DNA of 64,000 bases. It comes from Sphaerisporangium rubeum (lineage in GTDB: Bacteria; Actinomycetota; Actinomycetes; Streptosporangiales; Streptosporangiaceae). Below are positions 25,350-45,798 of the stretch, piece by piece (within the stretch, counting starts at the first letter, position 1; every line of letters starts with the position of its first letter). The notes below the pieces were generated by a model. The model worked only from the letters and a program-made list of their open reading frames with translations, ran no database searches and was not told where the DNA came from. Location of the stretch: assembly GCF_014207705.1 (NCBI RefSeq), contig NZ_JACHIU010000001.1:4456501-4520500 (forward strand), read 5' to 3'. Position numbers and translations under genes: made by a program.

Positions 25350-27161
25350 TTACATTCCCACGGCCGCGTAAAGGTCCCCGACCTCTTTGACGGTGAGGGC
25401 CCGCATCGTGCCGGGCTTGAGCCTGCCGAGCTTCACCGGGCCGAACTCGATGCGCGCCAGGTCGAGCACCGGGTGGCCCGCCTCCTCCAGCATGCGCCGG
25501 ACGATGCGGTTGCGGCCCTCGTGGATCACGATCTCGACCAGCGCCTGCTGACCGTGCTCCTGCACGATCGAGAAGTCGTCGGCCTTGGCCACGCCGTCCT
25601 CCAGCTCGATGCCCTTGCGCAGGCGGCGGCCGAGGTCACGCGGAATGTTACCCGCGATCTTGGCCCAGTACTTCTTCTTGACGCCGAAACTCGGGTGGGT
25701 CAGCTTGTGCGCCAGCTCGCCGTCGTTGGTCAGCAGGATCAGGCCCTCGGTCTCGGTGTCCAGCCGGCCGACGTGGAAGAGCCGCTCGTCGCGGTCCTGC
25801 ACGAAGTCGTGCAGGGACGGCCGTCCCTCGGGGTCGGACATGGTGCTGACCACGCCGATCGGCTTGTTGATCGCGAAGTACACCAGGGACGGTGTGCTCG
25901 GGATGCGCTTGCCGTCCACGTGGATGACCTGCTTGGCGGGGTCCACGCGCGCGCCGAAGCGGCGGACGACCTGGCCGTCCACGGTGACGCGGCCCGCGCC
26001 GATCATCTCCTCACAGGTGCGGCGGGACGCCACGCCGGCCCCGGCGAGGACCTTCTGCAGCCGTACGCCGTCCGGCACCTCGGTGGTGTCGCGCTCGTCG
26101 GCGTAGTCGCCGGGGTAGAACTCCTCGTCGCGCAGCGGCTGGCGTGCGGTCTTGAAGACGTTGCGCGACGAGGTGGTCGCGCCGCCACGGCCGGCCTTCG
26201 GCGCCTGCGACCTGGCCGGCGCGCGACCCGTGCCACCCGTGCCACCTGTGCGGCGGTACCTGCCGCGTGATCCGCCCGCGGTCTCGCCGATGGTGCCCAC
26301 CGCGTCGTCACGGCCGTAGCGATCCCGCGAGCCTCCCCGGCCCGCGCGCAGGGACGACGTCCCGGCCTCGTCCCGGCCGGCGGGACGGTCGTCACGGAAG
26401 GACCGGCGGTCGTCGGAGTAGGCCGATCGGGACCCGCCGGTGCCGTCACGGCGGTCGCCGCCGTAGGAACGCGACTCGCGCGCCGGTCCGCGCCGGTCCG
26501 CGCCGTAGGAGCCCCGGTCGTCGCGGTAGGAGCCGCGCCGGTCGCCGCCGGAGGAGGTGCGGGGGCCGCGGTCGTCGTAGGACCTGCCGCGCTCCTCGCG
26601 GTCGTCACGGAAACCGCCACGGCGGTCGTCGCCGTAGGACCGGCCCCGGTCGTCCCCTGAGAAGCCCCGGCGGTCACCGCCGGAGGCGCGGCCACGCTCG
26701 CCGTAGGAGCGATCGCCACCGGAGGGACGGCCACGCTCACCGTAGGAACGCTCGGACGAACGGCCACGCTCACCGTAGGAGCGGTCACCGCCGGAGGGAC
26801 GGCCACGCTCACCGTAGGAACGCTCGGACGAACGGCCACGCTCACCGTAGGAGCGGTCACCGCCGGAGGGACGGCCACGCTCACCGTAGGAACGCTCGGA
26901 CGAACGGCCACGCTCACCGTACGAACGCTCGGAGCCTTCGCCGTAGGAGCGGTCGCGGTCCTCGCGGCCGCCGCGGCGGTCCGCGCGGGGGGGACCGCCC
27001 TGGGAGGCGCCGCGTGAGCCGCGGGGGCCTCCCTGAGAGCCCCGGGGGCCCGCGCCGCGCGGGGAGTCGCCGGAACGGCCTCTGGCCCCGCCACGGGGGC
27101 TCGGGGCGCCGCCGCGCCCTCGACCGCGTCCATCACCGGACGGGGTGCCTTTTCTGATCAC
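25350..27161 (-). CDS. rluB: 23S rRNA pseudouridine synthase RluB type with long repetitive N-terminus
   Basis: A 603-residue protein. The conserved enzyme fills residues ~365-600: an S4 RNA-binding domain (VRLQKVLAGAGVASRR) and a RsuA/RluB catalytic domain with the nucleophilic Asp in GRLDTETEGLILLTNDGEL. Residues 1-360 are Arg/Gly/Ser/Asp-rich and disordered-looking, with three 24-residue repeats built on SYGERGR, resembling RGG-type RNA-binding tails. GTG 27161 overlaps the scpB stop (GTGA) and has GAGGAG 9 bases upstream, so the extension is probably translated. Actinobacterial RluB often has a basic N-terminal extension, but this one is very long. Confidence 0.9.
   Translation of the reverse strand: MIRKGTPSGDGRGRGRGGAPSPRGGARGRSGDSPRGAGPRGSQGGPRGSRGASQGGPPRADRRGGREDRDRSYGEGSERSYGERGRSSERSYGERGRPSGGDRSYGERGRSSERSYGERGRPSGGDRSYGERGRSSERSYGERGRPSGGDRSYGERGRASGGDRRGFSGDDRGRSYGDDRRGGFRDDREERGRSYDDRGPRTSSGGDRRGSYRDDRGSYGADRRGPARESRSYGGDRRDGTGGSRSAYSDDRRSFRDDRPAGRDEAGTSSLRAGRGGSRDRYGRDDAVGTIGETAGGSRGRYRRTGGTGGTGRAPARSQAPKAGRGGATTSSRNVFKTARQPLRDEEFYPGDYADERDTTEVPDGVRLQKVLAGAGVASRRTCEEMIGAGRVTVDGQVVRRFGARVDPAKQVIHVDGKRIPSTPSLVYFAINKPIGVVSTMSDPEGRPSLHDFVQDRDERLFHVGRLDTETEGLILLTNDGELAHKLTHPSFGVKKKYWAKIAGNIPRDLGRRLRKGIELEDGVAKADDFSIVQEHGQQALVEIVIHEGRNRIVRRMLEEAGHPVLDLARIEFGPVKLGRLKPGTMRALTVKEVGDLYAAVGM
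26701..26916 (-). repeat. Three 72-base tandem repeats within rluB
   Basis: Units at 26701-26772, 26773-26844 and 26845-26916 are almost identical and are followed by a degenerate partial unit. Each encodes 24 residues with two SYGERGR motifs. The period keeps the reading frame. Confidence 0.9.
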
Positions 27162-42415: not shown

Positions 42416-42576
42416 AGGCCGCTCCCTGAATCTCTCCCCGGCTCGATCTTCTCCCAGAGGCGGTCGCAGGCGCCTCGCGCTGCGCCAGCGTACACGTCCA
42501 TCATGTGCCGAAATTTGCTCGCGAACCCATTACCTCAGGGCACGCATGATTCCCCATGGACCCGGCGCGGGCCCAC

Positions 42577-42948
42577 TCATGGGGCGATACGGCGCCTCAG
42601 CAGGCAGAACTCGTTGCCTTCGGGGTCGGCCAGCACATGCCAGGACTCCTCGCCGGTCTGGCCGACGTCGGCCGGACGCGCGCCGGCGCGCAGCAGGCGA
42701 TCGAGTTCCTCGGCCTGGTCGCGGTCGGTCGGGCTCACGTCGATGTGCAACCGCAGCTTCCCCGGCGCGGGCTCACCCGGGCTGAAGATGAGGGTCGGCT
42801 CAGGGCCACCGAACCCCTCCTCGGGGCCGATCTCGACGCTCCCGTCCTCGCGGTCGAGCACCGAGAAGCCGAGCACCTCGCACCAGAACGCCGCCAGGCG
42901 CTCGGGATCACGGCAGTCGATCACCAGTTCGCTGATACGGCAAGCCAT
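42577..42948 (-). CDS. VOC (glyoxalase/bleomycin-resistance) family protein
   Basis: A 123-residue protein with two beta-alpha-beta-beta-beta modules. The first is ISELVIDCRDPERLAAFWCEV and the second begins near LRLHIDVSPTDRDQAEELD and ends HVLADPEGNEFCLLRR. This is the common actinobacterial small glyoxalase-like type; catalytic metal ligands and substrate are not certain. ATG 42948 starts just before the conserved fold; an upstream ATG at 42981 adds 11 residues. The gene lies between the deacetylase and the duplicated polA tail. Confidence 0.82.
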   Translation of the reverse strand: MACRISELVIDCRDPERLAAFWCEVLGFSVLDREDGSVEIGPEEGFGGPEPTLIFSPGEPAPGKLRLHIDVSPTDRDQAEELDRLLRAGARPADVGQTGEESWHVLADPEGNEFCLLRRRIAP

Positions 42949-42999
42949 GCCGTCCCATGTACCACCTCTGTCCCGCTTCACACCTGAACGGCACGGTCC

Positions 43000-43160
43000 T
43001 CAGTGGCCGGCGATCCCCCAAGTGCCGCCGGTGCCGGTGGAGACCGGCACCGGGACAGTCAACGGCGCGGCCGTCAGTGGCCATGTGCGGCCCGGTCAGT
43101 GGCCGGCTGTCTCCCAGGTGCCGCCGGTGCCGGTGGAGACCGACAGCGGGACGCTCAGGG
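43000..43160 (-). repeat. In-frame tandem duplication of the polA 3' end
   Basis: The last ~65 bases of polA, including its TGA (43096-43160), recur 96 bases downstream (TGA at 43000-43002). Both ends read GCCGGCCACTGA on the minus strand. The period is 32 codons, so the copy keeps the polA frame. Its last 20 codons match 15 of 20 polA residues, with STGTGGTW intact. A smaller fragment, ATGGCCACTGA, lies between the copies. Confidence 0.85.
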
Positions 43161-45798
43161 GGTAGGCGGCGCACATCTGACCGGTCACCAGGTCGCGCAA
43201 CGCGTCGAGCTCGCCGGAGGCCACCTCGAAGACCAGCTCGTCGTGCACCTGCAGGAGCATGCGGGAACGGAGCCCGGCGTCCTTCATGGCCGTGCCGACC
43301 TGGAGCATGGCGACCTTGATGATGTCGGCCGCCGAGCCCTGGATGGGAGCGTTGAGCGCCATGCGCTCGGCCATCTCGCGGCGCTGGCGGTTGTCGCTGG
43401 TGAGGTCGGGGAGATAGCGGCGGCGGCCGAGGATGGTCTCGGTGTAGCCGTCGTGACGGGCCTGCGCGACGATGGCCGCCAGGTAGTCGCGCACCCCGCC
43501 GAACTCCTCGAAGTACTCCTCCTTGAGCGCGCGCGCCTCGGCCACGGGGATGTTGAGCTGGCCCGACAGGCCGAAGTCGGACAGACCGTAGGCCAGGCCG
43601 TAGTTCATGGCCTTGATGCGGGCCCGCAGCTCGCCGCCGACCTGCTCAGGCGGCAGGTCGAACACACGGGCCGCGGTGGCCTGGTGGAAGTCGTGACCGG
43701 ACTCGAAGGCCGCGATCAGCGAGGCGTCACGCGACAGGTGGGCCATGATGCGCAGCTCGATCTGGCTGTAGTCGGCGGTCAGCAAACACTCGTACCCCTC
43801 GCCGACCACGAAGCCCTGCCGGATGCGGCGGCCCTCGGCGGTGCGGATCGGGATGTTCTGCAGGTTGGGCTTCTCCGACGACAACCGGCCGGTGGCCGCG
43901 ACGATCTGGTTGAACGTGGTGTGGATGCGCCGGTCGTCGCCGATCTCCTTGATCAGGCCCTCGACGGTGACCTTGAGACGGGTCTGGTCGCGGTGGCGCA
44001 GCAGGATGGTCGGCAGCTCGTTGTCGGTCTGGGTGGCGAGCTGGGCCAGCGCGTCGGCGTCGGTGGTGTAGCCGGTCTTGATGCGCTTGGTCTTCGGCAG
44101 GCCGAGCTTGACGAACAGGATCTCCTGGAGCTGCTTGGGGGACCCGAGGTTGAACTGCTCCCCCACCACCCGGTGGGCCTCCTCGACGGCCTGCTTCACG
44201 GCCGCGCCGAACTCGGCCTCCAGCCCCATGAAGTAGTCGCGGTCGGCGGCGATGCCGGCGCGCTCCAGCTCGGCGATCACCCGCACCAGCGGCAGCTCGA
44301 CCTCGCGCAGCAGCTTGGTGCCGCCGCGGGGCTCCAGATGGGCCTCCAGCGCGTCGGCGAGCTCACGCACGGCGTCGGCCCGTACGGCGAGCTCCTCGGC
44401 CTGGTTGTCGGCGGGGTCGTCGAACAGCGCCGCCTGGCCGCCGTCGTCGCTCTCGGCGCGCAGCTCGCGGTGGAGGTAGCGCAGCGCGAGATCGTCCAGC
44501 GGGAACGACCGCTGGCCCGGCATCGCGAGATACGCCGCGAGCGCCGTGTCACAGGTCAGGCCGCGCATGTCGAGCCCGTGGGCCCACAGGCCGAGCAGCG
44601 GGCCCTTGGCGTCGTGCATGGCCTTCGGCACGCTCTCGTCGGCGAGCCAGGCGCCGAGCGCGCGCTCGTCCTCGGGGGTGAGGGTGGTGAGGTCGAGGTA
44701 GGCGGCGCGGGCCGGGCCTCCCGCGTCACCGGGGACGGCGACGGCGAGGCTGTCGACGCGGCCGGTGCCGCTGCCGAAGGCCCCCTTGACGGCGAGGCCG
44801 GCACGCGCACGCGGCAGCGCGGCGAACCACTGCGCTACCTGGCCGGACCCGAGGGTGGTGACCTCGACGGAGAAACCCTCGTCGGCCTCGGGCTCGGCGG
44901 TGCCGATGCTCTGGTAGAGCCGGTCGCGCAGCACGCGGAACTGGAGCGTGTCGAACAGCTTGTGGATCTCGTCGCGGTCCCACTGGCCCATGGTGAGGCC
45001 GCTCACCTCGACGTCGAGCGGCACGTCGCGGCGCAGCTCGGTGAGCTGACGGTTGTGCATCACCTGGCCGAGGTACTCGCGCAGCTTGTCGCCGACCTTG
45101 CCCTTGACCTCGTCGACCCGGTCGACCAGCGCGTCGAGCGAGCCGAACTCCCTGACCCACTTGGCGGCGGTCTTCTCCCCCACGCCGGGGATGCTCGGCA
45201 GGTTGTCGCTGGGGTCGCCGCGCAGCGCGGCGAAGTCGGGGTACTGCTTCGGGGTGAGCGTGTACTTCTCGACGACGGCCTCGGGGTCGAAGCGCGTCAT
45301 GTCGCTGATGCCGCGCCGCGTCATCAGCAGCGTGACGCGGTCGTCGACGAGCTGCAGCGCGTCGCGGTCGCCGGTGACGATGAGGACGGTCATGCCCTGC
45401 TCGGACGCCTGGTGGGCCAGCGTCGCGATGAGGTCGTCGGCCTCGTACCCGGCGAGCGACAGGTGAGGGACGCGCAGCGCGTCGAGCACCTCGAAGATCA
45501 GGCTGACCTGGCCGCGGAAGTCGTCGGGGGTCTCCTGGCGGTTGGCCTTGTACAGCTCGTACGACTCGTGCCTGAACGTCGGCTCCGACCGGTCGAAGCA
45601 CACCGCGACGTGGGTCGGCTTCTCGTCACGCAGGACATTGATCAGCATGGACGTGAAGCCGTACACGGCCTCGGTGTGCTGGCCGTCGGTCGTGGTGAGA
45701 TTGGCGTCCTTGAGCGCGTAGAACGCGCGGTACGCGAGCGAGTGCCCGTCCAGCAGGAGCAGACAGGGTCGGGCGGGGGTCGGATCCGTCTTCGGCAC
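43096..45798 (-). CDS. polA: DNA polymerase I
   Basis: A 900-residue repair and Okazaki-fragment polymerase. The 5'-3' exonuclease fills about 1-290 (LLLDGHSLAYRAFYAL, AGYEADDLIATLA, SIPGVGEKTAAKW). The middle domain (about 310-490) lacks the DxE proofreading pair at the expected position, as in other actinobacterial Pol I. The polymerase domain has motif A LTADYSQIELRIMAHLS, motif B RIKAMNYGLAYGLS and motif C QVHDELVFE. GTG 45798 has TAGGCT 6 bases upstream. A diverged duplicate of its 3' end follows the stop codon. Confidence 0.97.
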   Translation of the reverse strand: MPKTDPTPARPCLLLLDGHSLAYRAFYALKDANLTTTDGQHTEAVYGFTSMLINVLRDEKPTHVAVCFDRSEPTFRHESYELYKANRQETPDDFRGQVSLIFEVLDALRVPHLSLAGYEADDLIATLAHQASEQGMTVLIVTGDRDALQLVDDRVTLLMTRRGISDMTRFDPEAVVEKYTLTPKQYPDFAALRGDPSDNLPSIPGVGEKTAAKWVREFGSLDALVDRVDEVKGKVGDKLREYLGQVMHNRQLTELRRDVPLDVEVSGLTMGQWDRDEIHKLFDTLQFRVLRDRLYQSIGTAEPEADEGFSVEVTTLGSGQVAQWFAALPRARAGLAVKGAFGSGTGRVDSLAVAVPGDAGGPARAAYLDLTTLTPEDERALGAWLADESVPKAMHDAKGPLLGLWAHGLDMRGLTCDTALAAYLAMPGQRSFPLDDLALRYLHRELRAESDDGGQAALFDDPADNQAEELAVRADAVRELADALEAHLEPRGGTKLLREVELPLVRVIAELERAGIAADRDYFMGLEAEFGAAVKQAVEEAHRVVGEQFNLGSPKQLQEILFVKLGLPKTKRIKTGYTTDADALAQLATQTDNELPTILLRHRDQTRLKVTVEGLIKEIGDDRRIHTTFNQIVAATGRLSSEKPNLQNIPIRTAEGRRIRQGFVVGEGYECLLTADYSQIELRIMAHLSRDASLIAAFESGHDFHQATAARVFDLPPEQVGGELRARIKAMNYGLAYGLSDFGLSGQLNIPVAEARALKEEYFEEFGGVRDYLAAIVAQARHDGYTETILGRRRYLPDLTSDNRQRREMAERMALNAPIQGSAADIIKVAMLQVGTAMKDAGLRSRMLLQVHDELVFEVASGELDALRDLVTGQMCAAYPLSVPLSVSTGTGGTWETAGH

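Follow-up and report, generated by a model that had tools for sequence, protein, structure and literature searches.

A diverged in-frame duplicate of the polA 3′ end in Sphaerisporangium rubeum: a probable relic, possibly reused as a U-poor hairpin

Short local tandem or segmental duplications, as produced by replication slippage, occur in bacterial genomes. The locus described here lies behind the DNA polymerase I gene (polA) in a stretch of 64,000 nucleotides from Sphaerisporangium rubeum, the whole of which is called the window below. It resembles such duplications in consisting of adjacent, diverged copies with a 96-nt period that are seen in the window lineage only, and in not standing alone, since 464 kb of the genome contain 12 more of similar quality; it differs from them in that the repeat spans the last codons of a polymerase gene, in frame and with the stop codon included. 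With stop-codon readthrough isoforms, as generally known, the locus shares an open frame after a TGA, whereas the extension that its second copy would encode is neither conserved nor marked by any sign of purifying selection. A duplicated polA 3′ end may already have been reported, and no such report was found among the titles and opening lines of abstracts searched. The locus also invites comparison with hairpins at transcript ends of GC-rich actinomycetes: in the part of the source drawn on here, U-poor stems are a common transcript-end class in Streptomyces, fewer than three U being present in 353 of the 535 transcript ends classed as highly structured (PMC8269248). According to the portion used of a Streptomyces atlas, transcript ends lie at a median of 66–76 nt from the gene and terminators have three to four U in the first 10 nt (PMC12207403).

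The polA gene occupies 43096..45798 of the minus strand, an orientation left unstated in the preliminary description, and encodes a product of 900 residues that is complete at the first TGA (43098..43096) and carries exonuclease and DNA_pol_A matches in Pfam. The DNA_pol_A match extends to residue 896 of 900, so the repeated tail is the end of that domain, and the last 300 residues align through the final residue of the mycobacterial Pol I chains 6vdc and 6vde. The tail had earlier been called a “thumb/palm tail”; its position at the domain end stands by the Pfam match, and this part of the domain is palm, not thumb. The residues DAGH directly precede the polA stop in all 80 of the relatives’ loci listed. 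As judged from these alignments, the real C-terminus of Pol I is the upstream copy (copy 1), ending at the first TGA.

Copy 1, the functional 3′ end of polA, comprises its final 63 nt (43158..43096, minus strand) and reads LSVPLSVSTGTGGTWETAGH followed by the stop. In frame and 96 nt downstream lies copy 2 (43062..43000, minus strand), a diverged duplicate that would read LTVPVPVSTGTGGTWGIAGH followed by a second TGA. The two units agree at 54 of 63 bases, have the shared end GCCGGCCACTGA and hold in common a core of 25 identical bases; taken as 62-nt direct copies (43000–43061 and 43096–43157) they are 87% identical at a start-to-start spacing of 96. In translation 15 of 20 residues agree, and STGTGGTW is unchanged between the copies. 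The 96-base period, the second in-frame TGA and the residue counts given in the preliminary description were thus reproduced, and its claim of a true tandem duplication is well supported by comparison with chance: local alignment of the polA tail with the 400 nt that follow the gene gives a score of 84 (z = 30, 100 shuffles), and five mononucleotide shuffles of the window contained no place with at least 54 of 62 identities at offsets of 30–300. An assembly artefact is unlikely because the copies differ at nine sites. A plasmid search with the repeat region gave no match.

The spacer between the copies (43063..43095, minus strand) measures 33 nt and includes most of one unit of a smaller, imperfect 22-nt repeat. 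The two units of this repeat (43061–43082 and 42987–43008), the second of which overlaps the end of copy 2, are 86% identical at a spacing of 74; counting the occurrence that it contributes, GGCCACTGA is present three times, the third lying in the spacer at 43082..43074. Since the spacing and length of the 22-nt repeat add up to the main period (74 + 22 = 96), we infer that the present form of the repeat probably took two steps, not one clean duplication. When at least 54 of 62 identities were required at offsets of 30–300, and coding and non-coding places were pooled, local duplications of equal quality were found at 13 places, the polA one included, in 464 kb, a sample of some 6% of the genome made up of twenty 20-kb stretches together with the window. 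Elsewhere in the window, at 26680–26866, a local repeat with an offset of 72 has 62 of 62 bases in agreement. Short matches to the polA tail region also occur at two sites elsewhere in the genome, one over 23 bases at 100% (L002, G000:C1:6763917-6763939) and one over 39 bases at 85% (L003, G000:C1:2115305-2115343).

Relatives were represented by 85 loci, comprising 80 listed and five further congeners, with ten congeners in all; one locus (L076) has only 30 nt downstream of polA and is thus uninformative on the copy. Within the 400 nt compared, a second polA tail was found behind polA in none of the 85 (L076 with its 30 nt only), and it is absent in all ten congeners. The best alignment of tail with downstream sequence among these relatives scores 30 (z 4.2), against 84 (z 30) in the window. 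At the nine sites where the copies differ, the congener majority base is kept by copy 1 at six, by copy 2 at one and by neither at two, which makes eight departures in copy 2 and three in copy 1, and three sites at which all 80 relatives listed agree (4, 12 and 46) have a different base in copy 2. Five of the seven differing codons are nonsynonymous; set against 17.7 synonymous and 42.3 nonsynonymous sites these changes show no deficit of amino-acid replacements, at the low power that so few sites give, and on the same few sites copy 2 shows no synonymous excess and no sign of purifying selection.

The preliminary description had offered a simple relic as one reading and had named absence from relatives together with a lack of purifying selection as the mark of a neutral duplication; both were found, as far as the few sites show. 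We consider it highly probable that copy 2 is what remains of a neutral duplication, with a possible second use as a U-poor terminator hairpin. A segmental tandem duplication private to this lineage would have placed the last 63 nt of polA, with a few flanking bases, in the 3′ untranslated region. The real C-terminus is still that of the upstream copy, and the downstream copy, presumably untranslated, has drifted as protein code, as the comparison shows. Copy 2 now holds a perfect 11-bp hairpin, 43–68 nt past the stop, that may act as a U-poor terminator or 3′-end protector. Taken as a relic the locus carries little weight, except that a second stop in the same in-frame context can arise by ordinary short duplication and does not have to imply readthrough.

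It had also been proposed that occasional readthrough of the first TGA would yield Pol I with a reserve C-terminus, some 32 further residues bearing the second tail. The frame stays open over the 31 codons leading to the second TGA, and the first is followed by C, but no copy was found behind polA in the 85 relatives searched (one with 30 nt only), copy 2 lacks bases common to all 80 listed relatives at the three sites given above, and its differing codons are mostly nonsynonymous (5/7). Moreover, TGA-C ends polA in 47 of 71 TGA-ending listed relatives, and the frame behind polA is open for at least 31 codons in 51 of 79, in both cases without any copy; by these counts neither a TGA-C context nor a long open frame marks the polA locus, both being usual in this GC-rich family. 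Retention of frame across a duplication has about one chance in three. Third-position GC is 0.87 in the extension and 0.96 in polA, values that are close for a segment of only 31 codons, and among the 85 relatives (one with 30 nt only) no extension kept as protein was found. These base rates, the absence in relatives and the nonsynonymous drift therefore lead us to reject a readthrough extension, which we regard as highly improbable.

The polA tail itself is unusual on this lineage. Both copies carry 11 common departures from the congener majority, three of which (sites 17, 23 and 45) prevail in the family at large, which suggests that part of the tail divergence predates the duplication or was later shared by conversion. 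The fourth residue from the end of polA (43108–43110, minus strand) is T here and D in all 80 relatives listed. On a tree of 86 leaves built without the last 25 columns, the terminal branch of the window carries five changes within the final 20 residues and 13 elsewhere, as compared with totals of 25 and 524 for the remaining 85 leaves (Fisher p 0.0016, uncorrected); leaving out L037, the counts are 5 and 11 versus 23 and 525 (p 0.0006). None of the other leaves has more than two tail changes. The last 20 residues of polA thus changed faster than the rest on the window branch. In a tree of polA fragments only, the window groups with two Sinosporangium loci (L049 and L051).

Downstream of polA on the minus strand lies a glyoxalase-like (VOC) gene (42577..42948, presumed start; Pfam Glyoxalase_6). 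A polysaccharide deacetylase gene is found downstream of polA in 81 of the 86 loci listed, the window included, and a VOC gene stands between polA and the deacetylase gene in the window only (1/86), the sequence covered downstream of polA ranging between 30 nt and about 3 kb among the loci. The closest congener homologue of the VOC gene (72%) is in G005, on a contig other than that of polA. The duplication being found in none of the relatives searched and the VOC gene in one locus of 86, both are seen at this place only in the window lineage. This setting, together with the unusually diverged polA end and the 25 identical bases that could be the core in both copies, would suit the scar of a lost integrative element that had used the polA 3′ end as its attachment site. 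Such a scar is nevertheless scarcely credible, the distance between the copies being only 33 nt and a second polA tail being found within 400 nt in none of the 85 listed relatives (one with 30 nt).

We return to the preferred reading, a neutral relic, and to its possible reuse. On the transcript strand copy 2 contains CCGGTGCCGGT-CTCC-ACCGGCACCGG (43028..43053, minus strand), a perfect 11-bp stem with a CTCC loop located 43–68 nt past the polA stop and a candidate U-poor terminator or RNA 3′-end hairpin. The dyad is present in copy 1 too, there with a single mismatch and a G–T pair (10 of 11 positions paired), and the best 36-nt fold is −18.2 kcal/mol in copy 1 and −28.0 kcal/mol in copy 2. 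Selection for a hairpin already in copy 1 is unsupported: its best tail hairpin (−18.2) lies near the median of −17.6 for 84 relatives listed. The hairpin of copy 2 was noticed first, and the mutation and shuffle tests were done afterwards. In the 160 nt behind polA an equal 36-nt fold appeared in 0 of 40 dinucleotide shuffles, and it appeared in 3 of 300 random genome stretches; when whole stretches were folded, 12 of 200 shuffles equalled the 71 nt around copy 2 (z −1.67) and 26 of 200 equalled the 117 nt downstream (z −1.22).

A canonical terminator, with a stem-loop and a U run, was found nowhere in 42500–43400, and an Rfam search at E up to 1 gave nothing for the region. The 12 nt after the stem are CGGCACTTGGGG; the stem ends 68 nt past the polA stop, and two of the next eight bases are T. 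In these features the hairpin resembles the U-poor structures (HS-U-lack) that the part of the source used here compares with I-shaped ones: it has a stable GC stem with a short loop, fewer than three U in the next 8 nt, and a fold of −28 kcal/mol that passes the divide of −23, computed there on 40-nt stretches (PMC8269248). Its distance from the gene is that seen in Streptomyces, and it is followed by two U as against the three to four in the first 10 nt stated in the portion of the atlas used (PMC12207403). It differs from the HS-U-lack class, as far as that class is described in the same part of the source, in deriving from a copy of coding DNA and in being recognised from sequence alone (PMC8269248). 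Tentatively, and with somewhat less than even confidence, we read the hairpin as a U-poor terminator or 3′-end protector of the polA transcript, placed ahead of the co-directional VOC gene. If functional, it would be a case in which a terminator originated in a duplicated piece of coding sequence.

How the stem became perfect bears on this reading. The two stem differences between the copies, at sites 12 and 15, each strengthen the stem and jointly take the fold from −18.2 to −28.0; of the two, only site 12 has a clear polarity, copy 2 being the one that changed. Starting from copy 1, random substitutions reached the fold value of copy 2 in 1 of 2000 trials when every second position was scanned and in 0 of 2000 when every position was. 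Four reconstructed starting states reached it in 0, 0, 6 and 4 of 2000 with the former scan, and in 0, 0, 1 and 6 of 2000 with every position scanned as for copy 2. Selection may have completed a latent dyad in the copied codons and so given polA a terminator made from its own last codons, a proposal we hold to be doubtful. The stem could also have a purely mutational origin, template switching at an imperfect inverted repeat having made the arms exact complements without any function. The near-complete pairing in copy 1, with its one G–T, the strengthening effect of both stem differences and the clustering of polA tail changes on the window branch (five in the last 20 residues, 13 elsewhere) agree with such an event, but the polarity of site 15 is ambiguous, and single changes at sites 0, 4, 41, 46, 49 and 50 have no effect on the best fold while that at site 5 adds no more than 0.4, which calls for ordinary drift besides template switching. 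We judge this functionless origin unlikely, without being negligible. As a whole, a terminator made from duplicated codons, as opposed to a stem that mutation at an inverted repeat produced incidentally, is a possibility that we place appreciably below even.

Situated some 80 bp upstream of the start presumed for the VOC gene, the same 26-bp dyad might instead be an operator for a regulator of that gene. Its 22-bp core, GGTGCCGGT-N4-ACCGGCACC, recurs with at most two mismatches at 17 other places in the genome (G000, L157-L165 and others), as against two matches per strand for a reversed control; the control is not palindromic, however, which understates chance, and the recurrence may reflect a bias towards GC-rich hairpins. 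A sigma-70-like promoter was not found by a scan that covers few actinomycete promoters, and we think an operator quite improbable.

Hairpins behind polA were also compared among relatives. A strong one (matched by at most 2 of 40 shuffles) is present in 24 of 84 relatives listed, and among the ten congeners L045 alone clearly has one (0/40 shuffles), L042 and L037 giving 3/40 and 4/40; the median hairpin behind polA is −22.1 in the listed relatives versus −17.85 in random stretches of the window genome. With 24 relatives of 84 and one clear congener, a terminator hairpin is therefore plausible at the polA of the window and not a rule of polA. As a separate observation, very strong hairpins of other sequence lie within about 60 nt past the polA stop in L071, L094, L099 and L069, that of L071 having a perfect stem of 16 bp.
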